A stretch of 32,958 nt of DNA, taken from positions 1-32,958 of IMG/VR virus record IMGVR_UViG_3300018416_002804; one strand, 5' to 3'. The DNA comes from a virus. A model generated the notes under the pieces. The model ran no database searches, was not told where the DNA came from, and worked only from the letters and a program-made list of their open reading frames with translations. This document shows positions 1,912-20,849 of the stretch, in pieces (the first letter of the stretch is position 1; each line of letters begins with the position of its first letter). The position numbers and the translations under genes are program-made.

Positions 1912-3468
1912 ATGCCTGATTTAGGAAAGAGTCAAAGAGACTATGCAGTATACTTGCCTGCGGTAAGTAGCTTTTACACAATTCAACTAAAGCGTACTAC
2001 ACAAAATCACGAAAATCCAAGAGTGCCTGCAGGATTTGAGAAAGGCAACGAAGGGCTTGACTTTCTCAAGCCTGACTCGTACTTCCATTATCCTTACGGA
2101 CTTTATTCTGCAGGGCATTCTTACTTAGACACAGCTAAGAGTACAATAGATGAGCCAATGATACAACAACGGGATCGAGAGGTTACTACAGTATTAGGCG
2201 ACTCTGGTGGATTCCAAATTGCGAAAGGCGTTATAAAACTCGACTGGTCAAATGCCATGGATCCAAACGATCCTGAACGTAACGCTATGTGCGGCAAGAT
2301 TTTAACTTGGCTAGAGCATACAGCAGACTGGGCAATGACACTTGACGTACCTAGCTTCGCGGCATCTCCTCCTTTCTCAGCAAAAACAGGGCTAACAAGT
2401 GTACAAGACACTGTTGATATTTCCTTGCTTAACTTGGATTACTTTTTAAGAAATCGAACAGTAGGCAAAACTAAATTCCTAAATGTATTATCAGGTAACG
2501 ACGAAGCCAGCAGTGATACGTGGTACGATGCTGTTAAGCATTTTAGCGACCCGCAGTTTGTAGCCGCTAACTATGGAGATGCTAACAGAACACTGGAAGG
2601 TTATGCGTTCGCTGGTATCAACATGAGAAATATGCGATGCGTCTTAAAACGTATACTACAGTTACGCGAAGATGGATTGTTAGAAAATAAAGGATGGATA
2701 CATTTCTTGGGTACTGGAAAACTTAATTGGGCTTGCTACCTAACAAGCATACAGCGTATGCTTCGAGAACATGATAGCGAAAACATTACACTAAGTTTTG
2801 ATGCGGCTAGTCCGTTTGTTAATACTGCCTACGGTCAAACATATTCGTACAATTTTTATAGCCCAAAGAAGTTTGGGTACTTTATGGATCGTGCGTTTGA
2901 TACGCAGGACCTGAAAGGCAGTGATCTTCCAATGCCGTTCGGCGGGCCTATCATGGGAAGACTTACAGCAGGCGATATTTGTTGTATGGCGGCAGGTGAT
3001 CCAGACAGAAACGGAAAGTTAAAAGAAGCAGATAGTAACAGTTGGGATTCACTTAGCTATTTGTATTATATGGCTCATAGTGTTTTTAATCATATTAATG
3101 CTGTACAAGAAGCGAATAGATTAGCTGACGTTGAAAAGTTCCGAGCTAAGGTACACTACAGTGACTGGATTAACGACAAGAAGTCTAAAAGCACAAATGA
3201 GTTTAGCCCTTACGTTCCTTACAGTGTAGTATATTTCGATAGTTTCTGCCGCGAAGTGTTAGATCCTAACTGTCCTAATCCGCATGAGCTTATCGATAAG
3301 TACGGTAAATTCTTAGACGAGATTAGCTTTGGCAATTTTAATACCGAAACAGCATTAGACACTAGCTTCTTCGAAGAGGAGCAAGTCGGACACGACGATG
3401 ACTCTATGAGCAGAGAAGAATACATGATGGATCCAGCTATGGATAGTGTTCACAAAGACGATGAATAG
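1912..3468 (+). CDS. dpdA: DpdA-like 7-deazaguanine DNA transglycosylase (TGT superfamily)
   Basis: A 518-residue member of the tRNA-guanine transglycosylase superfamily. The hallmark GDSGGFQIAKG (residues 96-106, Asp97 aligning with the TGT active-site Asp of DSGGFQ), LDVPS at 144-148, FLGTGK at 265-270 and SFDAASPF at 295-302 (Asp297, candidate nucleophile) follow the TIM-barrel order. The CxCxxC zinc site of tRNA enzymes is not visible, and the protein is longer than bacterial Tgt (about 375). In phages this family (DpdA) exchanges guanine in DNA for 7-deazaguanine bases, masking restriction sites. FolE, QueD and QueE encoded here could make the precursor, supporting a DNA rather than tRNA target. 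Starts 2 nt after the clamp stop. Confidence 0.85.
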   Translation: MPDLGKSQRDYAVYLPAVSSFYTIQLKRTTQNHENPRVPAGFEKGNEGLDFLKPDSYFHYPYGLYSAGHSYLDTAKSTIDEPMIQQRDREVTTVLGDSGGFQIAKGVIKLDWSNAMDPNDPERNAMCGKILTWLEHTADWAMTLDVPSFAASPPFSAKTGLTSVQDTVDISLLNLDYFLRNRTVGKTKFLNVLSGNDEASSDTWYDAVKHFSDPQFVAANYGDANRTLEGYAFAGINMRNMRCVLKRILQLREDGLLENKGWIHFLGTGKLNWACYLTSIQRMLREHDSENITLSFDAASPFVNTAYGQTYSYNFYSPKKFGYFMDRAFDTQDLKGSDLPMPFGGPIMGRLTAGDICCMAAGDPDRNGKLKEADSNSWDSLSYLYYMAHSVFNHINAVQEANRLADVEKFRAKVHYSDWINDKKSKSTNEFSPYVPYSVVYFDSFCREVLDPNCPNPHELIDKYGKFLDEISFGNFNTETALDTSFFEEEQVGHDDDSMSREEYMMDPAMDSVHKDDE

Positions 3469-4348: not shown

Positions 4349-5220
4349 TACTGTATACTACAGGCGATGGCTCATTTAAAGAAACGGAGTGGTCACGCTT
4401 AGAGCGTAGCGATGATGAAATTGCGGTTAAGTCTATACTTACAGGTGTTTGTCGTAGCGACATTGATATGATGAATGGCGATTTTACATTGCCCGATCCT
4501 ATTGGGATGAGTGGACACGAGGGGCTAGGACAGGTTATCGAGATAGGCAAGAATGTAAGAAACGTTAAACTCGGCGACTATGTTGCTACACGCGGTGAGC
4601 CTGCTTATGCAGATGAATACAACGTAAGATACGGAGAATTTGTAGTTGTTCCTTCCGCTGATCCTAAATACATATTAGAACCAGTGGCATGTGGCGTAAA
4701 CGTAGTGCTACAAGCTAAGGAAATGATTTATAAAAAAGCCGGCGGAAGGTGTGCTATCTTAGGCAGTGGATTTCTAGCATGGGTCGCGTATAATACAATT
4801 AAAACATTAGGGTTACCTCTAGAAGTAGAAGTACAAGGCAGAAGTAATAAAGACATGTGGGGAGATGTATTACAAGAAAGGCTGACCGGCAAGTTTGATG
4901 TAGTAATCGATTTGGTAGGCAGAGATTTTGTTGACATCAACGATGAAGCATTAATCATTAAAGGTGTCCCTACTGCGTCAACTAAAGAATTCGAAGAGGT
5001 ATTACTGTGGAAGGCTTGTACAACTATAAGACCTAGTCCTCGTACAAAACACTTTTACGACGCAATGGTGTTAGCAAAAGGCTTAGTCGAATCCGACTCA
5101 ATAAACGTTGACAAGTTTTGGACTAAAGGGTACGATAGAGAAACTGAATGGACACAAGCGTTCGAAGATGGACTAAACAGGCCTGAGAATTATAGCAGAG
5201 GATATATAAAATGGCGTTAA
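4345..5220 (+). CDS. Zinc-dependent medium-chain dehydrogenase (MDR)
   Basis: A compact 291-residue member of the alcohol/polyol dehydrogenase superfamily (usual length about 340-350). Catalytic zinc ligand candidates are Cys36 (TGVCRSD), His58-Glu59 (SGHEGLGQV) and Glu112 (LEPVACG). The dinucleotide-binding loop ILGSGFLAWVA follows. The four-cysteine structural zinc lobe is missing: no cysteine lies between GDYVATRG and the YGEFVVV strand. Its start overlaps the upstream oxidoreductase by ATGA, so the two are translationally coupled and probably act in sequence. The small catalytic half resembles sugar-alcohol dehydrogenases; the substrate is unknown. Confidence 0.83.
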   Translation: MILYTTGDGSFKETEWSRLERSDDEIAVKSILTGVCRSDIDMMNGDFTLPDPIGMSGHEGLGQVIEIGKNVRNVKLGDYVATRGEPAYADEYNVRYGEFVVVPSADPKYILEPVACGVNVVLQAKEMIYKKAGGRCAILGSGFLAWVAYNTIKTLGLPLEVEVQGRSNKDMWGDVLQERLTGKFDVVIDLVGRDFVDINDEALIIKGVPTASTKEFEEVLLWKACTTIRPSPRTKHFYDAMVLAKGLVESDSINVDKFWTKGYDRETEWTQAFEDGLNRPENYSRGYIKWR

Positions 5221-5735
5221 ACACTGAAGAAAGAAAAGACATAGTATACTTTACTGGATTTGAAGTTGAGCATACTATTTGTTACGAAATGTACACGTTA
5301 TTTGTTGTAGGGACTCCGCCATTGGACGAAATATTAGAACAGGCAACCTCGAATCATGTAAAGCAAATTTACTTCGGTACTAGTCAAAGTTTTAATCCTG
5401 CCACACATCAAGATTGGCAAGAGTGGGACAAGGTTATAACTGGTTGCTTGAATGCTGGATACTGGGTAGCGTTAGACTTTGATTCCAGCTATGCTAGCGA
5501 GCACATGTTCTCACAAGTAGAATGGAATGAGTACGAAAAGTTTGTTCCTATGATTAGTGTTAAGCTACCTAATATTAAGAAATTTAATTATAACGCTACA
5601 GTGAAAATAGATGATACAACATGGGGTCACAGTAATCCCGGAGTATGGACACACCAACTTAACGAGTTAACTGTTAAAGATAAATTTACGCACTGGGATC
5701 TTTATACGGAAGATACTAACACAGATAACCATTGA
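5211..5735 (+). CDS. Hypothetical protein, larger paralog of the next gene
   Basis: A 174-residue soluble protein with no recognised catalytic motif. It overlaps the upstream dehydrogenase by 10 nt. Its middle (VKQIYFGTSQSF, then W..W...I, then WVALDFDSSYASEH) aligns with the 106-residue protein that follows (VYLGAHGTF, W..W...I, WITLEYDDAYFEEV). The pair therefore share one alpha/beta fold, this copy having extra N- and C-terminal segments. It closes the run of genes that starts at the clamp; a promoter begins in its last codons. Confidence 0.72.
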   Translation: MALNTEERKDIVYFTGFEVEHTICYEMYTLFVVGTPPLDEILEQATSNHVKQIYFGTSQSFNPATHQDWQEWDKVITGCLNAGYWVALDFDSSYASEHMFSQVEWNEYEKFVPMISVKLPNIKKFNYNATVKIDDTTWGHSNPGVWTHQLNELTVKDKFTHWDLYTEDTNTDNH

Positions 5736-5759
5736 CACTAAGACTTAATGTAGTATAAT
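5732..5759 (+). promoter_or_regulatory. Sigma70-type promoter almost touching the next start codon
   Basis: TTGACA at 5732-5737 and TATAAT at 5754-5759 with a 16-bp spacer. The following ORF starts with ATG codons at 5763 and 5766, exactly where the transcript should begin, so the mRNA would be leaderless or nearly so. Confidence 0.85.
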
Positions 5760-5762
5760 AGT

Positions 5763-6083
5763 ATGATGACTAAAAAGCAAAACGTAATTTTTGTAGAGGG
5801 CCCACAAAATCCTAAAGAGATTTTAAAGCATTGTTTAACAGAAGGTACAGACCGTGTGTATTTAGGTGCTCATGGAACTTTTCAACCAAATAATACAACA
5901 TGGCCTAATAGGGAAACACCAGATAACAACTGGGTAGATTGGTGTTACATTATAAACGAATTAGAGAAGGCCGATGTGTGGATTACGTTAGAATACGATG
6001 ATGCATACTTTGAAGAAGTGCAGTACCGCTGGGCTCGTTATTATAAGTTTGAATCCGCATACAGAGGCAACAATGAAGATTAA
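5763..6083 (+). CDS. Hypothetical protein, small paralog of the upstream gene
   Basis: A 106-residue protein related to the upstream 174-residue protein: (V/I)Y(L/F)G....F.P, W..W...I, and W(I/V).L(E/D)(Y/F)D..Y..E are shared, ending in (E)xYxKF. Function unknown. Two consecutive ATG codons (5763, 5766) lie 4 and 7 nt beyond a perfect -10 box, leaving no room for a ribosome binding site; there is no later in-frame ATG within the conserved region. It overlaps the next small gene by 11 nt. Likely an accessory early protein, judging from the host-like promoter. Confidence 0.75.
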   Translation: MMTKKQNVIFVEGPQNPKEILKHCLTEGTDRVYLGAHGTFQPNNTTWPNRETPDNNWVDWCYIINELEKADVWITLEYDDAYFEEVQYRWARYYKFESAYRGNNED

Positions 6084-6201
6084 AATAGAATTAGAAATTG
6101 ACACAGTAGAGGATCGTGAAGAGATTGAAGAATTGATTCGCCTTGCTACTGTGTTGAAAGAAAAACGTGAAGCATTACAAAAAGCTAAGGACGAGAAATA
6201 A
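6073..6201 (+). CDS. Small coiled-coil hypothetical protein (42 aa)
   Basis: Start taken at ATG 6073, preceded by AGAGGC. The frame is open further upstream to 5998, but that stretch overlaps the previous gene and lacks a ribosome binding site. The 42-residue product begins with MKIKIELEID and is then highly charged and helical (EDREEIEELI, KEKREALQKAKDEK), fitting a short amphipathic helix or coiled coil. Its stop overlaps the next start by one base (TAATG). Confidence 0.6.
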   Translation: MKIKIELEIDTVEDREEIEELIRLATVLKEKREALQKAKDEK

Positions 6202-6548
6202 TGGAGTATTTAGTTTTAATTGTAGGGTTAGTAATTATAGGCATAATAATTACAGGCATAATTACATACGTACACTCCCTCGATAAAACAATCGCCGAGG
6301 AAGAGAAAGAGTATGCAAGTAAGGTAAAGGAGTACCAGTGGTTAATACAGGTTAACGAAACTGCAACTAACCCTTCATATCGCTTTGAAACAGATAAGTT
6401 TTACGAGACAATAGAAGATGTGCAAAAAGACTTTCCGGAACCTACGTACACTGTGTTGCTTAATAGTCGAATAGCGTGGCTATTTGTTCCAATGGAAATA
6501 TCAGAAGAAAGATTAAACGTACTACCTAGGAGGAATAATGGTAACTAG
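6201..6548 (+). CDS. Single-pass membrane protein
   Basis: A 115-residue protein with one long hydrophobic N-terminal helix (about residues 3-24, rich in Val, Ile and Gly) and then a charged region (DKTIAEEEKEYASKVKEY) that may be coiled coil. No signal peptidase site is obvious, so the helix is probably a membrane anchor with the remaining 90 residues in cytoplasm or periplasm. Its last 11 nt overlap the first Tat-signal gene, and the AGGAGG ribosome binding site of that gene lies in its final codons. A role with the two exported proteins downstream is possible but unproven. Confidence 0.72.
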   Translation: MEYLVLIVGLVIIGIIITGIITYVHSLDKTIAEEEKEYASKVKEYQWLIQVNETATNPSYRFETDKFYETIEDVQKDFPEPTYTVLLNSRIAWLFVPMEISEERLNVLPRRNNGN

Positions 6549-7278
6549 ACGAGATTTTCTAAAAGGTGCCGGAGTCACACTAGCATCAACAGTTGTACCT
6601 AACGTAGTGTTAAGTGGTACAGAAGATACTATTGCAGAAGCAGGCTTAAGTATTAGTGATAATTTTCATGTAGATTCTAACGGTAATATTAGGTATATCG
6701 GTGATATGTATAGTAACACCAAATTCTCTGTTTCAGAATTACATCATTGGTTGATGGGGTTACAAGACAAGGCTATGAGTAGTGACAGCGTTTTCGATAT
6801 TACTACCGAGACAGCTTCTTATCGCATTACTGACGATTACTTTCAATTTAACGGTGATGTTAATATTGATGATTACTCAGCAGAGTTCCTCAAAAATGGT
6901 GCTATTTCACAGAGAAATGACACTGAGGTATACTCGGGCATAAGGGTAATCGGAAGCGTAGCTAATCCAATATACGATGATGCTAACGCTGAAGATAAAG
7001 GTGTAGTAATTTCTCACTGGAGTGGAAATATTGATATACCGTTTCACCGTTTTGTCACAAACAGATACGAGCATACGACTTATTCAGGTTTAATAAAATC
7101 AAAATCGGCTGGTTACCAAATGGATAGTACTGAGGTGACTAGTATGAGACCTGTGACATTTGACATGGACTTGTATCATAGAAAACGAATATCCATGTAT
7201 TCAAAGGAATGTCATGTTAAAAATTCGTTCACTACACCACTATATAAAGGAGTCACTGTAATACCAGTGAGTATTTAA
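6538..7278 (+). CDS. Exported protein with twin-arginine signal, resembling a virion protein segment
   Basis: A 246-residue protein. The N-terminus MVTRRDFLKGAGVTLAS is a textbook Tat signal: RRDFLK, a moderately hydrophobic stretch (about residues 10-27), then a polar mature domain. Tat exports folded proteins across the cytoplasmic membrane. The mature part (GNIRYIGDMYSNTKFSVSEL, then a WLMGLQDKAMSSDSVFDIT region and YFQFNGDVNIDDYSAEFL) recalls, from memory, a repeated segment of marine-phage structural proteins. The ribosome binding site is AGGAGG, 5 nt before ATG. Tat signals are rare in phage genes. Whether the protein goes to the envelope or is a virion component is open. Confidence 0.8.
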   Translation: MVTRRDFLKGAGVTLASTVVPNVVLSGTEDTIAEAGLSISDNFHVDSNGNIRYIGDMYSNTKFSVSELHHWLMGLQDKAMSSDSVFDITTETASYRITDDYFQFNGDVNIDDYSAEFLKNGAISQRNDTEVYSGIRVIGSVANPIYDDANAEDKGVVISHWSGNIDIPFHRFVTNRYEHTTYSGLIKSKSAGYQMDSTEVTSMRPVTFDMDLYHRKRISMYSKECHVKNSFTTPLYKGVTVIPVSI

Positions 7279-7279
7279 A

Positions 7280-7513
7280 ATGAAAAGACGTGATTTTTTA
7301 AAGAACACAGGAATAGTAGCGGCCGCAAGTATGGTACCGTTTGTGGCGCAAGCTAACGACGACATGCTTTCACCAGGAATTCATTTACTATGGGACGGTA
7401 GTATATGGGTTAACACAGCTTCGCCATATCAGGGTACTAATTTCCCAGTAGGTACCCAAGCACATCCTGTTAACAATTTAGCAGATGCAAAGAGAATAAA
7501 GGAAATACATTAA
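7280..7513 (+). CDS. Short second Tat-signal protein, possibly a truncated virion protein
   Basis: A 77-residue protein starting MKRRDFLKNTGIVAAAS, a second Tat signal with a likely cleavage site after AQA (residue 25). The mature part of about 52 residues includes GTNFPVGTQAHPVNNLADAK, a pattern I recall at the start of beta-rich phage fibre or appendage domains (GT.YP.GT...PVNNL.DA). Those domains normally continue, whereas this one stops at RIKEIH. It may be a small exported module or a degraded remnant. One base separates it from the first Tat gene; its stop overlaps the QueD-like start by one base. Confidence 0.72.
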   Translation: MKRRDFLKNTGIVAAASMVPFVAQANDDMLSPGIHLLWDGSIWVNTASPYQGTNFPVGTQAHPVNNLADAKRIKEIH

Positions 7514-7896
7514 TGAATACAATTTGGGTTACATTTCAAGCAGAAGGCGTACACATGTATCCTGCGGCACATACAGATCCTAAACTATGTACAGCAGGTG
7601 AGATGGATGTTAGCTTTTTAGGAAACTTACATAGACACATGTTTCACTTTAAAGTATGGATAGAAGTATTTCATGATGACCGTGATTTAGAGTTTATACA
7701 ATTTAAACGCTGGTGTCAAGGTCTTTATGGTAACGGAGTTTTGGAGTTTGATCATAAAAGCTGTGAGATGCTTGCTGACGAATTAGCAGAACAAATAAGA
7801 GAGCAGTACCCAGAACGGTATCTAAAAATATCCGTTGCTGAAGATAATGAGAATGGATGTGAGATGGAATATTTTGCATTCGGAGGAAATACATAA
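7513..7896 (+). CDS. queD: QueD-like 6-carboxytetrahydropterin synthase
   Basis: A 127-residue divergent member of the QueD/6-pyruvoyltetrahydropterin synthase family. Candidate zinc ligands are His20 (PAAH), His40 and His42 (HRHMFHF), with Cys26 as possible catalytic thiol; the spacing from Cys26 to HRH is longer than in E. coli QueD. FDHKS (about residue 79) matches the active-site Asp-His before the segment containing ADEL. QueD converts dihydroneopterin triphosphate, the FolE product, to 6-carboxytetrahydropterin, the QueE substrate, and both genes are present here. The VFHDDRDLEF insertion after the HRH strand looks like a phage branch of the family. Starts on the previous stop (TAATG). 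Confidence 0.72.
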   Translation: MNTIWVTFQAEGVHMYPAAHTDPKLCTAGEMDVSFLGNLHRHMFHFKVWIEVFHDDRDLEFIQFKRWCQGLYGNGVLEFDHKSCEMLADELAEQIREQYPERYLKISVAEDNENGCEMEYFAFGGNT

Positions 7897-10695: not shown

Positions 10696-10905
10696 ATGTC
10701 AAGAACAAGTAATATTAGAGTGGTACCAATTAACAACAGTGGCGCTCGTGGCCCAGATACAATGTTCGTAGTAGACTTACTCGACAATGACAAATTAGTA
10801 GAAACGAGGAAACTTCCAGGCAAAGGCATACATTATGCTATGGATGTTTCTGAGAACTGGGACAACGGAATTATAAAAGAGGCAACAAATGAGCAATCCA
10901 AATAA
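10696..10905 (+). CDS. Hypothetical protein (69 aa)
   Basis: A small soluble protein with no recognised domain. The ribosome binding site AAAGGTGAT lies about 7 nt before ATG. It seems to form a few beta strands (IRVVPI, TMFVVDLLD, KLVETRKLPG), then ends hydrophilic. Its last 17 nt overlap the folE start, which suggests coupling of translation with GTP cyclohydrolase. Confidence 0.6.
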   Translation: MSRTSNIRVVPINNSGARGPDTMFVVDLLDNDKLVETRKLPGKGIHYAMDVSENWDNGIIKEATNEQSK

Positions 10906-11590
10906 AAATAGATTACAAAAAACATCAGAGATAGTTAGAGAGCGTCTCAAAGCCGAGGGCGTTAAGTTTCATAGTAATGATAATATTAGCGACTACCTTA
11001 CAGCAGGTGAACTAGAGAAGATTCAATCCGAAGTAGCTGATGCTATGCAAGATGTGTTAAATGCATTAGTTATCGATACAGAGAACGACCACAATACAAA
11101 CGAAACTGCCAAACGTGTAGCTAAAATGTTTGTTCGAGAAACATTCGGTGGTAGGTACACTCCAGTACCAAAAATTACTAGCTTCCCTAACATGGGCTAT
11201 AAGAGTTTATACACAACTGGGCCAATTACAATACGTAGCACTTGTGCTCATCACTTTCAAAACATTGTAGGTAAGTGTTGGATTGGAATTCTGCCCGAGG
11301 AAGAAGTTATCGGATTGAGCAAGTTTAATAGGCTTGTACATCACATTGCAGAACGTCCACAAATTCAAGAAGAAATGACTACACAGATTGCAACGGCGCT
11401 ACAAGAATATGCTAAAACTGAAAACGTAGCAGTTCTACTAAAAGCAGAGCATCACTGTATGACACACAGAGGTGTCAGGGAACACGAAAGTGATATGACT
11501 ACTGCTATAATGTTAGGTGCGTTCGACACAACACCGGCATTAAAGAAAGAGTTTTATGATATTTGCTTAAGCATGAAAGGACATAGCTAA
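10889..11590 (+). CDS. folE: GTP cyclohydrolase I
   Basis: A 233-residue enzyme with the full type I signature: ETAKRVAKMF, then STCAHHF (zinc ligand Cys119, with His121/His122) and AEHHCMTHRGV (Cys190). It converts GTP to 7,8-dihydroneopterin triphosphate, the first step of both folate and 7-deazaguanine synthesis. With QueD-like, QueE and DpdA in the same window the deazaguanine role is more likely than folate. Length matches E. coli FolE (222). It overlaps the upstream small gene by 17 nt and the next start by one base (TAATG). Confidence 0.94.
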   Translation: MSNPNKNRLQKTSEIVRERLKAEGVKFHSNDNISDYLTAGELEKIQSEVADAMQDVLNALVIDTENDHNTNETAKRVAKMFVRETFGGRYTPVPKITSFPNMGYKSLYTTGPITIRSTCAHHFQNIVGKCWIGILPEEEVIGLSKFNRLVHHIAERPQIQEEMTTQIATALQEYAKTENVAVLLKAEHHCMTHRGVREHESDMTTAIMLGAFDTTPALKKEFYDICLSMKGHS

Positions 11591-13604: not shown

Positions 13605-13743
13605 TAGGCAAACTATTAGGAAATATTGTCTACTAGAAAATAAAATTCTACTAAACAAAGAAGGGCGTAGAACACACAAAGAATGGCGCGGCAAAACGCC
13701 AAAAGAAATAGGATTCGGTTATGAGCAAGCTACGATACAGTGA
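13597..13743 (+). CDS. Candidate ORF without a standard start codon (48 aa)
   Basis: Frame 1 is open through the 116-nt gap between the 54-aa ORF and queE and ends at TGA 13741-13743, 23 nt inside queE. It reads KYCLLENKILLNKEGRRTHK, then EWRGKTPKEIGFGYEQA, which looks like genuine protein. No ATG, GTG or TTG precedes it in frame. ATA at 13597, overlapping the previous stop and preceded by GAAGGCGAAGG, is the only plausible start; a frameshift or sequencing error upstream is an equal possibility. Confidence 0.35.
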   Translation: MSDRQTIRKYCLLENKILLNKEGRRTHKEWRGKTPKEIGFGYEQATIQ

Positions 13744-14608
13744 AGTATTTTATTCAGTGCAAGGAGAGGGGAGATTTGTCGGTGTTCCCTCTATATTTTT
13801 AAGAACTTATGGTTGTAATCTGAGTTGCGCAGGATTTGGCCAAGAAAGAGGTAACTTAATACCTGTAACAGAAATGCCTTACATGAATGATCCTAAAGCA
13901 GATCCTAATCATCCGGAAGCATACACAAGCATAGAGGAACTTCCTGTTACTCCAATTGGTTGCGACAGTAGCGCAAGTTGGGCAATGAAGTACAAGCACT
14001 TACAGAAGACACAGACAGTAGATGAAGTGTTTGAAGAGATTGTTAAGTGTTTGCCGGGTGGTGATTTTTATGGTATGTTCGACGAGGATATACACTTGGT
14101 TATTACAGGTGGCGAACCTCTACTAGGGTGGCAACGTATTTGGCCTGAGCTAATTGAGAAATGTAAAAAGATTGGACTGTGTAACATTACATTCGAAACA
14201 AACGGAACACAAATAGTAAGCGAAGAACTTAGAGAATATTTCAACACAGCAGGCAACGGTGTTCACGTAACCTGGAGTACTTCTCCTAAGCTATCTATTA
14301 GTGGCGAGAAGAAAGAAGATGCGTGTATTCCCGAATCATTACAAAGTATGAAGGGCGTAGCTAATTCTTATCTTTATACAAAATTTGTAGTAAGAGATGC
14401 CAGTGACTTCGCAGAGATAGAAGAATTCGTGCAAGCATATTATGATGCAGATATTTGGCTTGATGCAATATACGCAATGCCCGAGGGCGCAACAACAAGT
14501 CAATTAGACTTAACAGAAAAACAAGTAGCCGAGGAGTGTATGAATAGGGGTATTAGATTTAGCCCTAGACTTCACCTCGCCTTGTTCGACAACCAGTGGG
14601 GCACATAA
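13721..14608 (+). CDS. queE: 7-carboxy-7-deazaguanine synthase (radical SAM QueE)
   Basis: A 295-residue radical SAM enzyme that converts 6-carboxytetrahydropterin (QueD product) to 7-carboxy-7-deazaguanine. The N-terminus FYSVQGEGRFVGVPSIFLR is the classic QueE opening. The cluster-binding cysteines appear as Cys32 and Cys36 (GCNLSC) and Cys81 (GCDSSASW): the canonical CX3CX2C is split by about 42 extra residues rich in Pro, Asp and Glu. ITGGEPLLGW, ETNGTQ and WSTSPKLS follow as in the family. Bacterial QueE is about 210-240 residues, so this is an enlarged version. It starts after a run of very short ORFs and overlaps the next gene by one base. Confidence 0.92.
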   Translation: MSKLRYSEVFYSVQGEGRFVGVPSIFLRTYGCNLSCAGFGQERGNLIPVTEMPYMNDPKADPNHPEAYTSIEELPVTPIGCDSSASWAMKYKHLQKTQTVDEVFEEIVKCLPGGDFYGMFDEDIHLVITGGEPLLGWQRIWPELIEKCKKIGLCNITFETNGTQIVSEELREYFNTAGNGVHVTWSTSPKLSISGEKKEDACIPESLQSMKGVANSYLYTKFVVRDASDFAEIEEFVQAYYDADIWLDAIYAMPEGATTSQLDLTEKQVAEECMNRGIRFSPRLHLALFDNQWGT

Positions 14609-16236: not shown

Positions 16237-17283
16237 ATGTCCAGAGAATATAACCTAGCCGTGTTTATCGGCAGATTCCAACCCGCACATAATGCGCACG
16301 TTGAAATTATTAAACAATCTTTAGAGCTTGCTGACAATGTACTTGTTATTATTGGCTCTTCTTTTCAACCAAGAACTTACAAAAACCCGTTCACTCAATA
16401 TGAACGTACCACTATGTTACAGCGCGGTTGTGCTGAAGCCGGCGTAGACCTTGCTAGAGTCTTTTTTGACTATAACACGGATACACGGTACGACGATGGT
16501 GCGTGGTTAGTAAGAACACAGAAAATTGTCAATACTTATGCTAAAATTTATGACGACCCTAAGGTTGTTGTAGTTGGGCACAAGAAAGAAGACGACCCTT
16601 CCACTTATTACTTAGACATGTTCCCACAGTGGGGCAGAGTAGACCATCAGTTAATTGAGCCGTTGGATGCTACACACATCCGGGATTTTTACTTTAAAGA
16701 TATCCCAAATCTTAATTACTTGAATGGAGTTGTTCCTCTTAGCGTTCGTGAATATTTAGACGAGTGGAGACAGACCCAGTACTTTAAAGATGTAGTACAA
16801 GAACGCAAGTTTGCTGAAATGTACAAGGAGCAGTTCTCCCACTTAAGGTACGCACCAATTTTTGTTACCACTGACGCAGTAGTTGTCCAGAATGCACACG
16901 TACTTCTAGTAAAGCGCGGAGCATATCCAGGCAAGGGCCTTTGGGCTTTTCCCGGCGGGTTTGTTGACGCAGAAGGCGACAAGTCTGTACAGGACGCAAT
17001 GGTACGAGAGTTGCGCGAAGAAACAAAAATCGATTTGCCTGAAAAAGTAATTGTAGGCAATATTGAAAAGACTAGGGTATTTGACGCACCTGGTAGATCT
17101 AGCAGAGGACGCACAATTACTCATGCTTTTTACGTAACACTTCCGGATGGCAATAAACTGCCTAAAGTAAAAGGAAGCGACGATGCAGTAAAAGCACAAT
17201 GGGTTCCAATTGCAGACGTTAAATCTGAGGATTGCTTTGAGGATCATTACGAAATTTTACAGTGCCTAACAGGAGGCAAATAA
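16237..17283 (+). CDS. nadM: Bifunctional NMN adenylyltransferase / Nudix hydrolase (NadM-Nudix)
   Basis: A 348-residue two-domain protein. Residues about 1-185 are a nucleotidyltransferase: GRFQPAHNAH (12-21) carries the HxGH-type site as HNAH, and LDATHIRDF (143-151) is the C-terminal ISxTxxR-like motif. It joins NMN and ATP to NAD+. Residues about 205-348 form a Nudix domain: GGFVDAEG...RELREETKI (240-265), with two to three extra residues in the box compared with GX5EX7REUXEEXGU and Lys in place of its last Gly; ADP-ribose is the usual substrate. KVP40 NatV has the same layout. NAMPT follows 237 nt downstream. Ribosome binding site AGGAG. Confidence 0.92.
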   Translation: MSREYNLAVFIGRFQPAHNAHVEIIKQSLELADNVLVIIGSSFQPRTYKNPFTQYERTTMLQRGCAEAGVDLARVFFDYNTDTRYDDGAWLVRTQKIVNTYAKIYDDPKVVVVGHKKEDDPSTYYLDMFPQWGRVDHQLIEPLDATHIRDFYFKDIPNLNYLNGVVPLSVREYLDEWRQTQYFKDVVQERKFAEMYKEQFSHLRYAPIFVTTDAVVVQNAHVLLVKRGAYPGKGLWAFPGGFVDAEGDKSVQDAMVRELREETKIDLPEKVIVGNIEKTRVFDAPGRSSRGRTITHAFYVTLPDGNKLPKVKGSDDAVKAQWVPIADVKSEDCFEDHYEILQCLTGGK

Positions 17284-17284
17284 G

Positions 17285-17470
17285 ATGGCTAGCAGACTAG
17301 TAAACAAATTAGAAGACAGGATCCGTAGGTACGAAGTATACGGTGCAAACACCGAACAGGAAATTAAGGACGTAAACCTTCTTCGAGAAACTAAGAAAGA
17401 ATTGATGCGTCTAGAACGAATTGAAACCGATGCTAACTGGATCAAACATCCAGACAGGATGGGACAATAA
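17285..17470 (+). CDS. Small charged helical protein (61 aa)
   Basis: A 61-residue protein starting 1 nt after the NadM-Nudix stop, with AGGAGG in the final codons of that gene as ribosome binding site. The sequence is mostly one amphipathic helix (RLVNKLEDRIRRYEVYG, then LRETKKELMRLERIETDA). No family recognised. It sits between the two NAD+ enzymes and may be co-translated with the first. Confidence 0.65.
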   Translation: MASRLVNKLEDRIRRYEVYGANTEQEIKDVNLLRETKKELMRLERIETDANWIKHPDRMGQ

Positions 17471-17473
17471 TGC

Positions 17474-17487
17474 TAAGGGATAGACCC
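17474..17487 (+). promoter_or_regulatory. Leader element shared with the NadM gene, copy 2
   Basis: TAAGGGATAGACC (17474-17486) repeats 13 bases found at 16191-16203. GGG-ATAGA-CCC can form a short stem with the same ATAGA loop. The NAMPT ATG is 34 nt downstream, with the ribosome binding site AAAGGAG between. Confidence 0.5.
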
Positions 17488-17520
17488 GAAGCTTAACTTA
17501 AACTGTAAAGGAGATTTACA

Positions 17521-18927
17521 ATGTTAACACAAAATCTATTATTAATGTCAGACAGCTATAAATATAGCCAGTTCAATCAGTATCCACAAGGTACTGAAAT
17601 CGTCCGCTCTTATATTGAGAGCAGAGGCGGCGAATGGGATTTAACCGTTATGTTCGGTTTACAATCCTTTATCAAAGAATATCTTAGCAAACCAATCACA
17701 CAAGAAATGATTGACGAAGCTGAAACACTTATTCTTGCTCACGGTGAACCCTTCAACCGAGAAGGTTGGGAATATGTTCTTAACGAACTAGACGGCTACA
17801 TTCCACTTAGAATTAAGGCAGTCCCAGAAGGTACAGTTCTTCCTTACTTGAATGTGCTGGCTGTAGTTGAAAACACAGATCCAAAATGCGGATTTGTTAC
17901 TAGCTTCTTTGAAACTCCGTTGCTTCGTGCAGTATGGTACGGTACTACTGTAGCCACTAACAGCTTCGAAAGCAAAAAGATGATCCTTGAGGCTTTGCAA
18001 GAAACAGGCACTCCTGAGGACATCAACTTTAAGCTACACGACTTCGGTGCACGAGGTGTAAGCAGTGGCGAGTCCGCTATGCTAGGTGGCATGGCTCACT
18101 TAGTAAACTTCATGGGCACTGATACAGTGGAAGCACTTGTTGGAGCAATGAAGTACTACAATGCTACAGGCCCAATTGGATTTTCAATCCCTGCTATGGA
18201 ACACAGCACGGTTACTTCTTGGGGTCGTGAAAACGAAGCAGACGCATATCGCAACATGCTTAAGTTGAACGGAAAGCCTGGCGCGCCAATTGCGTTCGTG
18301 TCTGACAGCTACGATATCTTTAATGCTTGCTCTAACATTTGGGGCAAAGAACTAAAACAGGAAGTTTTAGATTCTGGAGCAATTGTAGTAGTTCGTCCAG
18401 ACAGCGGTGACCCTGCAACTGTAGTGGTTAAATGCTTAAGACTGCTTGAGAAGGAGTTCGGTAGCGTTAGGAACGAAAAAGGATATCGTGTACTGAACAA
18501 TGTACGAGTTATCCAAGGTGACGGTATCGATCACGTGTCAATCCGTAGCATCTTGTACAATGTACAGATGGCTGGCTTCAGCTTAGACAATGTAGCGTTT
18601 GGTCAAGGTGGTGCTTTGCTCCAGCAGATCAATCGAGACACTTTGAAGTTTGCTATGAAGTGCTCCGCAATCCGCGTTAATGGTGAATGGAGAGACGTGT
18701 TCAAGGATCCTATTACTGACAAAGGTAAAGTATCCAAAAAAGGACAGGTTACATTGTACACCAACGCAAAAGGCGAGTTCTTAAGCGAACAAGAAGGATA
18801 CATCGATAGCCAAGGTAATTGGTCTTGGAGCGAAGCACTGGTAACAGTGTTCGAAAATGGTAAGGTACTAAATGAAACCAATTTCGACGAAATCCGAGCA
18901 AGAGCTAACAAACCTTTCGAGGTGTAA
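17521..18927 (+). CDS. nadV: Nicotinamide phosphoribosyltransferase (NAMPT)
   Basis: A 468-residue enzyme that makes NMN from nicotinamide and PRPP. Family motifs are all present: LMSDSYKYSQF (8-18, human TDSYKVTHY), KLHDFGARGVSSGE (171-184, with the binding Arg178), VNFMGTDTV (195-203, Asp201), PAMEHSTVTSWG (224-235, catalytic His228), FVSDSYDIFNACSNIWG, RPDSGDP, IQGDGID and FGQGGALLQ. Length is close to human NAMPT (491). With the NadM domain upstream it completes a two-step nicotinamide-to-NAD+ pathway. Strong AAAGGAG site. A rho-independent terminator follows 6 nt after the stop, ending the NAD+ cassette. Confidence 0.96.
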   Translation: MLTQNLLLMSDSYKYSQFNQYPQGTEIVRSYIESRGGEWDLTVMFGLQSFIKEYLSKPITQEMIDEAETLILAHGEPFNREGWEYVLNELDGYIPLRIKAVPEGTVLPYLNVLAVVENTDPKCGFVTSFFETPLLRAVWYGTTVATNSFESKKMILEALQETGTPEDINFKLHDFGARGVSSGESAMLGGMAHLVNFMGTDTVEALVGAMKYYNATGPIGFSIPAMEHSTVTSWGRENEADAYRNMLKLNGKPGAPIAFVSDSYDIFNACSNIWGKELKQEVLDSGAIVVVRPDSGDPATVVVKCLRLLEKEFGSVRNEKGYRVLNNVRVIQGDGIDHVSIRSILYNVQMAGFSLDNVAFGQGGALLQQINRDTLKFAMKCSAIRVNGEWRDVFKDPITDKGKVSKKGQVTLYTNAKGEFLSEQEGYIDSQGNWSWSEALVTVFENGKVLNETNFDEIRARANKPFEV

Positions 18928-19026: not shown

Positions 19027-20196
19027 ATGAGTAACGCAGTTTTTCTTCCAAATGGCAAGAGCTACAAAGTAGGCGATGCATCCCAAGCAATAGTTTTGGA
19101 TAATTTGCCAGTAGCCAATTATTCCTTGTCTCAAGACGACTACGGTAATTTTTGGTTTAACCAAATTGACGATTTTACCCTTCCAGAAAAGCTATACGGC
19201 AACTGTACCCAAAACGCAGACCGTATTGTTGAAACATTCAGCAAACGTGCGCAAAGTACAGGTGTTTTGCTTACCGGTGAAAAAGGCTCAGGCAAAACAC
19301 TGCTAGCAAAGACATTGTCTACGAAGCTTGCTGAAATTAATGTTCCGACGTTGGTAATCAATCAGCCATGGTGCGGCGAAGGCTTTAACAACTTGCTACA
19401 AAGTATTCATCAACCTATGCTTGTTTTGTTCGACGAGTTCGAAAAAGTATACGACAGAGATAGGCAGGATAAAATCTTAACATTGTTAGACGGTGTATTT
19501 AATACACGGAAGATGTTTGTGTTTACTTGTAATGACCGCTGGGGCATTAATACTTATATGCGTAATCGTCCAGGGCGTATTTTCTACTCCTTAGACTTTG
19601 ATGGCTTGTCCCTGGACTTTATTAGAGAATTCTGCCAGGACACATTAAACGATCAGAGCAAGGTTGATTCTGTTTGTCAGATTGCAGGACTTGCGAAGAA
19701 GTTTAACTTCGACATGCTTAAGTCTTTGGTAGAGGAAATGAATCGCTATAACGAATCTGCGAAAGAATCGCTAAGAATGCTAAACATCGAAGTTACCGAT
19801 GGCTTTTATAAGTACTCCGTTAAAATCACTCAAAATGGTAAAGCACTCGATCCTAAGTTATTTGCGCCCAATGTTTGGGAAGGTAATCCGCTTGACCCTG
19901 ACGGCTTTAGTGTTGCGGTATCTTCAAACCCTGATATGCTCCAGGGCCTAAGATCTCGGATTGAATATAACGATGATCCCGAAGAAGTTGCCGATTTAGC
20001 TGAGGATTTTGATTACGATGACATTGATGACTGTGTGGCTCCAACACCGGTAACGACATTCAGAGCTAATCATACAAATATCAAAGGCATGGATTCTGCG
20101 GCTGGCAAATACACGTTCGCTGACGAAGAAAATAGTCTAGAAGTAGTGCTATCAAGAGTTATTGATGTCCGCACTTCTTACCTAGACATGCTTTAA
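19027..20196 (+). CDS. AAA+ ATPase of phage type
   Basis: A 389-residue ATPase. GEKGSGKT (84-91) is Walker A, LVLFDEFEKV (about 132-141) is Walker B with Asp136-Glu137, and MFVFTCND holds the sensor-1 polar residue; RNRPGRIFYS is a candidate arginine-finger region. The N-terminal 75 residues and the acidic C-terminal third (EYNDDPEEVADLAEDFDYDD) are not recognised. Similar ATPases occur in T4-like marine phages, but the client is unknown. Own promoter; the 3' end overlaps the minus-strand homing endonuclease by 4 nt. Weak ribosome binding site (AAGAG). Confidence 0.85.
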   Translation: MSNAVFLPNGKSYKVGDASQAIVLDNLPVANYSLSQDDYGNFWFNQIDDFTLPEKLYGNCTQNADRIVETFSKRAQSTGVLLTGEKGSGKTLLAKTLSTKLAEINVPTLVINQPWCGEGFNNLLQSIHQPMLVLFDEFEKVYDRDRQDKILTLLDGVFNTRKMFVFTCNDRWGINTYMRNRPGRIFYSLDFDGLSLDFIREFCQDTLNDQSKVDSVCQIAGLAKKFNFDMLKSLVEEMNRYNESAKESLRMLNIEVTDGFYKYSVKITQNGKALDPKLFAPNVWEGNPLDPDGFSVAVSSNPDMLQGLRSRIEYNDDPEEVADLAEDFDYDDIDDCVAPTPVTTFRANHTNIKGMDSAAGKYTFADEENSLEVVLSRVIDVRTSYLDML

Positions 20197-20849
20197 GCAG
20201 AACGGTTGCGTAAACGCAGAATATGAGCTTCTCTGCGTTTACGCGCACCTTCTACTCCATACACTTCTTCCCAACTACGTCCTTTCTTAGCCTCTGACAT
20301 CTTCTTCTTTGTTTCCTCTGTGAATGGGTGGTCTATTACTTTCTTCCTCATAGCGGCTGTCATGGTTGCTATTTGTTCAGGCGTTCTCTTTTTGCCTGTA
20401 GTCTTAGCTATACGTTTGGCTATAGTCTCTTCGGATTGTGGACCTCTTGCTTTGTTTTGTTCGCCTATGCGTTTGCGGTCTTCTTCGCTCCACATCTCAA
20501 TCCCTTTGTTCCACGGTGTTTTGCCCTTCTTACTTTTAGACATTTTTTGTTTTGATTCCTCATGGTGTGTTCTACCACCTAATCCTCCTGTGAGAAGGTT
20601 ATATGAGTTAGGATCGTTTACTAGGGATTCGTTTACCAGTTCTTGTTCTTTAGCAAAAGCATCATCTTCGTTATCAAACGTAGCCAATATCTCTTTTTTG
20701 AAGTTTTCTTTGCCGTATTGAGCTATAGCGTTCTTTATAATGGTGCCAGAACCTAGATAATTATCGTTAGGATTGGTTGTTTTGTGCTTACCTATATAAT
20801 ACCTGTCATTTAACAGGTTTGTGGTCTTATAAACTGTATAAATATACAT
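20193..20849 (-). mobile_element. GIY-YIG homing endonuclease with NUMOD3 repeats
   Basis: A 218-residue protein on the minus strand, opposite to all nearby genes. The N-terminal GIY-YIG nuclease domain starts MYIYTVYKTTNLLNDRYYIG (GIY as YTVY, YIG as YYIG), followed by HKTTNPNDNYLGSG and a Glu-rich catalytic segment. Then come NUMOD3-type DNA-binding repeats: KQKMSKSKKGKTPWNKG, a middle SEETIAKRIAKTTGKK copy and TEETKKKMSEAKKGRSWEEV. Such free-standing genes (Seg-type in T4) spread by cutting DNA at their insertion site, here between the AAA+ ATPase and exonuclease genes. GGAG precedes its ATG. A late-type promoter may lie at 20908-20915. Confidence 0.9.

Follow-up and report, generated by a model that had tools for sequence, protein, structure and literature searches.

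Why would a marine phage carry, side by side, two small genes whose products join a twin-arginine (Tat) signal to part of a virion protein, and what could these products do? The question is raised by two consecutive open reading frames (ORFs) on the forward strand, P1 (6538-7278, 246 aa) and P2 (7280-7513, 77 aa), in an IMG/VR fragment that is complete at 32,958 bases and constitutes the window, i.e. the whole stretch of DNA analysed here. Judging from protein identities, the window phage is a large myovirus akin to Pseudomonas phage PA5oct: the ATPases of the two phages share 45.7% identity, and the protein encoded at 1912-3468 is 48.6% identical to its PA5oct homologue. An earlier note had reported that both genes start with RRDFLK and bear Tat signals, and both ORFs are indeed present at the place and on the strand that it gave.

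P1 comprises a Tat signal (6538-6615, residues 1-26), a domain hereafter named modA and a weakly conserved C-terminal part, while P2 comprises a Tat signal (7280-7354, residues 1-25) and the opening, cut short, of modB, a beta-helix-like module of virion proteins. The N-terminus of P1 reads MVTRRDFLKGAGVTLASTVVPNVVLS up to a putative cleavage point followed by GTED, and that of P2 reads MKRRDFLKNTGIVAAASMVPFVAQA up to a putative point followed by ND, both points having been read by eye. The P1 signal features TRRDFLK, a hydrophobic h-region at about residues 13-24 and a putative cleavage after VLS, a signal-peptidase site that we judged by eye to be weaker than the AQA of P2, whose own motif is KRRDFLK. 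Mean Kyte-Doolittle values of the h-regions are +1.6 for P1 and +2.2 for P2. Against TIGR01409, the NCBIfam Tat signal model, P1 and P2 score 20.6 and 18.0 bits, both above the curated cut-off of 16.7, and against Pfam TAT_signal they score 22.3 (0.4 bit short of the cut-off of 22.7) and 16.3, respectively. By motif, h-region and c-region, both proteins fit predicted Tat-type substrates. Given the residue composition of the window, an RRDFLK at a gene start is expected by chance at about 6e-6 per 60 genes, and the chance of two in adjoining genes is negligible. P1 is preceded by a perfect Shine-Dalgarno AGGAGG (6528-6533, forward strand) before its ATG; P2 has a weak ribosome site and starts on the same strand one base from the stop of P1, so that it may depend on translational coupling. 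A recent duplication of one signal into the other was considered and discarded, the DNA likeness of the two being no higher than their protein likeness predicts (a value attained in 360 of 1000 synonymous recodings).

The statement that Tat signals are unusual for a phage holds within this group, as the Tat profile run over whole records gave two matches in the 33-kb window and none in 27 relatives; over other phage records, those of modA phages, it gave one match in 50. The proposal of a metal- or cofactor-bound protein found no support: P1 has a single Cys and P2 has none, neither signal contains one, and a search for cofactor-binding families matched neither protein. It could also be that the RRDFLK N-terminus leads to no export and belongs to an accessory virion protein, which it tethers to a membrane or serves as a leader of another kind. 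Capsids of dsDNA tailed phages assemble in the cytoplasm, and leaders of this kind do occur elsewhere on full-size capsid-like proteins, as in L204, where a Tat leader precedes a major capsid protein of full length (E 5.6e-26 to phrog_283, major head protein). However, the curated Tat models fit both leaders, P2 has an AxA site, and AxA lies at the right distance in 18 of 51 phage RRDFLK ORFs, a count that none of 500 shuffles reached (shuffle mean 10.2); the two genes moreover sit among metabolic genes, downstream of a consensus sigma-70 promoter. We consider a leader without export improbable, and take the leaders as Tat signals in what follows.

The mature parts had been likened to segments of marine-phage structural proteins, which the profile searches confirmed for P1 and P2 alike. 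For P1, 80 viral-contig stretches (L114-L193) were fetched with a P1 motif and share a common translated neighbourhood; the motif was picked partly on our assumption that such marine structural proteins exist, and the 80 matches were then tested by alignment and by an HMM built from 74 of them. This modA HMM scores P1 at 96.3 bits over residues 34-198, with a match that is strong to about residue 145. P1 aligns over the whole N-terminal domain of the family (residues 34-145; modA at 6649-6972), with identities to single members of up to 44%, and displays the domain signature DIRY...LHRWL...IDDxAAxxLYxGSI. It keeps 23 of the 36 near-invariant positions of the domain, a count biased around residues 110-123 by the fetching motif, and 7 of 21 beyond it, where the C-terminal part (6973-7275) shows a weak likeness to the next region of the family. 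In an AlphaFold2 model computed with 54 sequences, the pLDDT is mostly 80-94 over residues 40-140, apart from residues 81-90, where it falls to 60, and the C-terminal part stays largely below 50; a single-sequence fold (pLDDT 31) was set aside. The modA domain was thus modelled confidently, but Foldseek returned zero matches for it in PDB and BFVD, so the fold gives no function.

Full-length modA proteins typically have about 550-860 residues, and their neighbours at L127 and L177 look, by eye, like tail and baseplate genes; the label "tail cassette" used here for the family denotes such gene neighbours in a few loci, with neither a family match nor mass spectrometry behind it. Being short, signal-bearing and located outside a tail cassette, among metabolic genes, P1 departs from the family in length, start and location and should therefore be regarded as derived from it and not as an ordinary member. 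None of the 79 homologues with a complete start (80 contigs) has a signal peptide; they start straight at the domain with M[AT]I..DFS...GDIRY, so that the leader of about 36 residues in P1 appears to have been added. Loss of the twin arginines in close homologues had been named as evidence against export: they are absent from all 79 virion homologues, yet they were never present there, which makes this a gain by P1-P2. Homologues keeping RRxFLK in related phages were sought as well; the phage records and viral contigs searched contained no signal-bearing relative of P1 or P2, and no second phage with a Tat-modA or Tat-modB fusion. A profile search of 14 relatives of the window phage, one of them a 175-kb record with a gp23-type capsid gene, detected no modA, hence the modules are foreign to the group of the window phage within the present sampling; a virion component of this phage would be expected to recur among the structural genes of its relatives, and modA was seen in none of the 14.

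The modB stretch of P2 (7385-7504, residues 36-75) scores 57.5 bits with the HMM of a family set made of L073, L074 and L103-L113, the best match being L073 at 55% identity. P2 ends right after the modB opening, GT.FPxGT..PVNNLADA, about 40 residues into the module and at the point where the beta-helix-like part would begin, so that the full repetitive domain is missing and the mature part has some 50 residues. A relationship between P1 and the N-terminal part of modB was rejected with hhalign, which indicates that modA and modB are different families.

The two families nevertheless belong together in other phages. Of the ten modA loci in which both were found, nine had modB on the same strand and downstream of modA, and modA was upstream in all seven of the modB-fetched loci that hold both (L073, L074, L106, L107, L109, L110 and L113, with L110 overlapping L074); the two are direct neighbours in L106 and in L073, which also provides the best match of P2. 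Among 98 control loci, one contained modB and none contained modA. Since modA precedes modB in other phages, P1-P2 repeats an existing virion pair order with both members shortened and Tat-tagged, and it has the appearance of a single virion gene pair that was copied from a different phage group in shortened form. The Tat tags were gained, apparently twice, because no modA homologue with a complete start has one. We regard this anatomy, Tat-type signals on virion-derived parts, as very probably correct.

That two adjacent genes should each have gained a Tat signal separately is hard to explain unless export was selected for, and the fact that both gains are in frame, on adjoining virion-derived genes, with the fold of P1 kept, argues that export is what was selected. 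The main rival is neutral decay, in which virion fragments were captured and joined to signals by illegitimate recombination in a cargo region of fast turnover, their products being perhaps exported with nothing selected. Decay owes its standing chiefly to the shortness of P2, cut off after about 40 residues of its module, and to the drift of the C-terminal part of P1, where most family positions are lost; the absence of the pair from all relatives also marks it as young or transient. The earlier note had itself offered a degraded virion gene as the alternative for P2, which is right as to anatomy, and as regards function decay is still the main rival. Two independent in-frame signal fusions on neighbours, with n-, h- and c-regions intact, speak against decay, as do the ideal AGGAGG start of P1, the unbroken frames and the modA fold core, kept with the motif-biased 23 of 36 positions and a high pLDDT. 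We deem decay possible but unlikely, and retain export as the selected property.

The surroundings of the pair bear on what was exported and when. Twenty-seven related contigs keep, whole or partly, an arrangement of the gene at 1912, the gene at 5211, a variable slot, a QueD-like gene, the gene at 7896 and a glycosyltransferase gene. P1-P2 is absent from all relatives compared; in its slot, a cytochrome c (Pfam 6e-8) is encoded in L085 and hydrophobic proteins in L077, and phages of the L079 type have almost nothing. Because of the cytochrome and the hydrophobic proteins, the slot appears to be a site for envelope cargo. Its right edge is the QueD-like gene (7513-7896, forward strand), conserved in nearly every relative whose DNA covers this place; the pair does lie ahead of this gene, as had been reported, whereas the QueD label is weak, as the protein belongs to phrog_17812 of unknown function (E 1e-30) and reaches Pfam PTPS at E 0.08 only.

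A sigma-70-type promoter, TTGACA-16-TATAAT (5732-5759, forward strand, 12 of 12 positions matching), stands ahead of the operon with P1 and P2. Six perfect copies with equal spacing occur in the window (at 1097, 5732, 12619, 18965, 20918 and 27421), all on the forward strand, compared with none in 10 shuffles, and the promoter recurs ahead of the same slot, perfect in L077 and L093 and with one mismatch in L076, L085, L079 and L087. A consensus promoter ahead of the slot genes suggests early transcription by the host RNA polymerase, unlike that of late virion genes. The first ORF after it (5763-6083, forward strand, 106 aa) seems to be a truncated paralogue of the gene at 5211-5735, as the proteins of both match one common gene in L076, L077, L085 and L093 by tblastn. 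A small ORF on the forward strand (6201-6548), with a hydrophobic N-terminal stretch recognised on reading the sequence, follows, and small membrane-type ORFs occupy its place in L076, L077 and L085.

Envelope cargo need not concern other phages, as the cytochrome c of L085 and the hydrophobic proteins of L077 illustrate, and P1 and P2 could be exported so as to alter the host envelope, for instance the timing of lysis, adhesion, or the loading of the Tat translocase at the cost of host substrates. In several viral contigs, small ORFs with Tat signals form runs although their mature parts are unrelated, as would be expected if the signal mattered more than the cargo. Such an export would not account for the derivation of the two mature parts from a single virion cassette, nor for their unchanged order, and we think it rather unlikely.

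Other features of this region deserve mention in their own right. In L085, the cargo slot that corresponds to that of P1-P2 holds an ORF (6767-7117) for what would be a phage-encoded, exported c-type cytochrome (Pfam Cytochrom_C, E 6e-8). A 7-deazaguanine pathway is suggested in the window by the QueD-like gene (7513-7896), a GTP cyclohydrolase I gene (10889-11590, Pfam 3e-46) and a radical-SAM QueE-like gene (13721-14608), and the 1912-3468 protein, also conserved in PA5oct, might be a candidate transferase matching this pathway. An NAD salvage pair, namely a cytidylyltransferase-NUDIX protein followed by a nicotinamide phosphoribosyltransferase, is encoded at 16237-18927, and a homing-endonuclease-like gene (NUMOD3/GIY-YIG) lies on the opposite strand at 20193-20849.

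Taken together, the primary structures suggest that domains of virion proteins are delivered by this phage to the envelope of its host. A modA gene followed by a modB gene would have been copied from a different phage group and shortened, each half acquiring a Tat signal, and the pair placed in the cargo slot of a PA5oct-related myovirus. P1 and P2 would be transcribed early by the host sigma-70 RNA polymerase; the N-terminal P1 domain, in folded form, and the small P2 protein would then pass the host Tat translocase and, once cleaved, remain in the periplasm, where they would act on the envelope. They would do so most likely in superinfection exclusion, by binding either the tail parts of an incoming phage or a host factor used by those tails. 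Small phage proteins that are exported to block superinfection are known. Envelope-directed cargo and early-type transcription make interference in the envelope the most likely purpose, and we tentatively favour P1 and P2 being exported virion-derived envelope proteins that most likely interfere with superinfecting phages. Against this exclusion reading we count the mature part of P2, just about 50 residues long, the last 100 residues of P1, poorly conserved and modelled with low confidence, the lack of a second phage with either fusion in the collections searched, and the fact that P1 retains the N-terminal domain of its family and no receptor-binding tip. The earlier note had envisaged a folded receptor-binding or exclusion protein in the envelope: placement there would be the most natural consequence of the signals, whereas a receptor-binding role in the strict sense is unsupported, since P1 keeps the N-terminal domain of a tail family and not a C-terminal tip. 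PADLOC gave no likeness of P1 or P2 to defence or exclusion families, which speaks against a known defence system.

Interference could also occur before export. Tat exports partner proteins bound to a signal-bearing subunit, and the tagged domains might join the tail proteins of a rival in the cytoplasm, drag them to or across the membrane as hitchhikers, or poison their assembly. The modules are foreign to the phage group of the window, and proteins that block the assembly of tails form a known class (Tai, PMC11364771; Tab, PMC10884400); however, this would require co-infection with a modA or modB phage. We give such interference with rival assembly very little credence, and keep exclusion at the envelope as the preferred reading.

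Are P1 and P2 alone in this respect? A scan for MKRRDFLK collected 71 viral contigs, most of them with a small ORF bearing a hydrophobic segment. Runs of at least two Tat-signal ORFs were found in L015 (three), L021, L031, L045, L049 and the 148-kb contig of L204 (G031, which also holds L223 and L224), a large, phage-like contig with eight Tat-signal matches in two clusters. The tagged capsid protein of L204, the sole match of that kind in its record, is about 25% identical to annotated actinophage capsid proteins. In L060 (2223-2678), a Tat signal is joined to a segment of about 50 residues of a gp23-type major capsid protein (PF07068, E 8.7e-15 in the record), and no further gp23 was found in the 120-kb record. 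Tagged segments of a head protein and of a tail fibre occur in L057 (5e-6) and L220 (0.003), respectively. The three consecutive Tat-signal ORFs of L015 (1735-2960) lie near terminase and portal-like genes, the third showing an apparent weak laminin-G match (Pfam; assigned to L015 on reading the sequence). L198, L202 and L208 have the same 283-aa ORF, with a Tat signal and a weak match to a structural cement protein (E 0.0025), which in L202 sits among nucleotide-metabolism genes. We do not claim an enrichment of Tat tags on virion modules: about 6-8 of roughly 65-80 phage RRDFLK ORFs are virion-like, several weakly so, and this proportion need not be higher than that of virion genes among phage genes.

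Some phages might weaponise virion modules of their rivals by means of a Tat signal, with tagged modules made early, binding tail or capsid proteins or envelope partners and removing or blocking them by export, although we hold this to be a long shot. If it were true, the window pair, the capsid proteins of L204 and L060 and the fibre and head modules of L220 and L057 would represent one previously undescribed interference strategy. A literature search of open-licence papers found no report of a phage sending virion-protein domains through Tat. Should export be confirmed, it would reveal a simple route from tail genes to envelope effectors, and the purpose of the small Tat-signal ORF runs in several phage contigs would become a testable question.

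How, then, does the pair compare with known systems? P1 and P2 share their motif, h-region and c-region with bacterial Tat substrates (TIGR01409, PF10518) and pass the NCBIfam cut-off, but their mature parts are phage virion modules and match no cofactor-binding family. Compared with the modA family, P1 has a Tat signal, lacks most of the full-length protein and lies in a metabolic or early region instead of a tail cassette; P2 shares with the modB family an opening that ends in PVNNLADA and, as in the donor phages, an adjoining modA, but carries a Tat signal and stops about 40 residues into the module. Tab (PMC10884400) and Tai (PMC11364771) block the tail assembly of invading phages; they too are accessory genes, and by analogy P1 and P2 may act on the tail proteins of a rival, but P1 and P2 bear export signals and have no known sequence relation to Tab or Tai. 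T5 Llp is a periplasmic exclusion protein (PMC9586334), and TP-J34 Ltp is reported to be an exported exclusion lipoprotein (paper cited in PMC3952083). Both are lipoproteins, whereas P1 and P2, with no Cys in the signal region, have no lipobox, and no sequence match to either was found. Like P1 and P2, for which this is predicted, Llp and Ltp are small phage proteins directed to the envelope during infection, and Ltp is reported to target a tail component, the tape measure protein.
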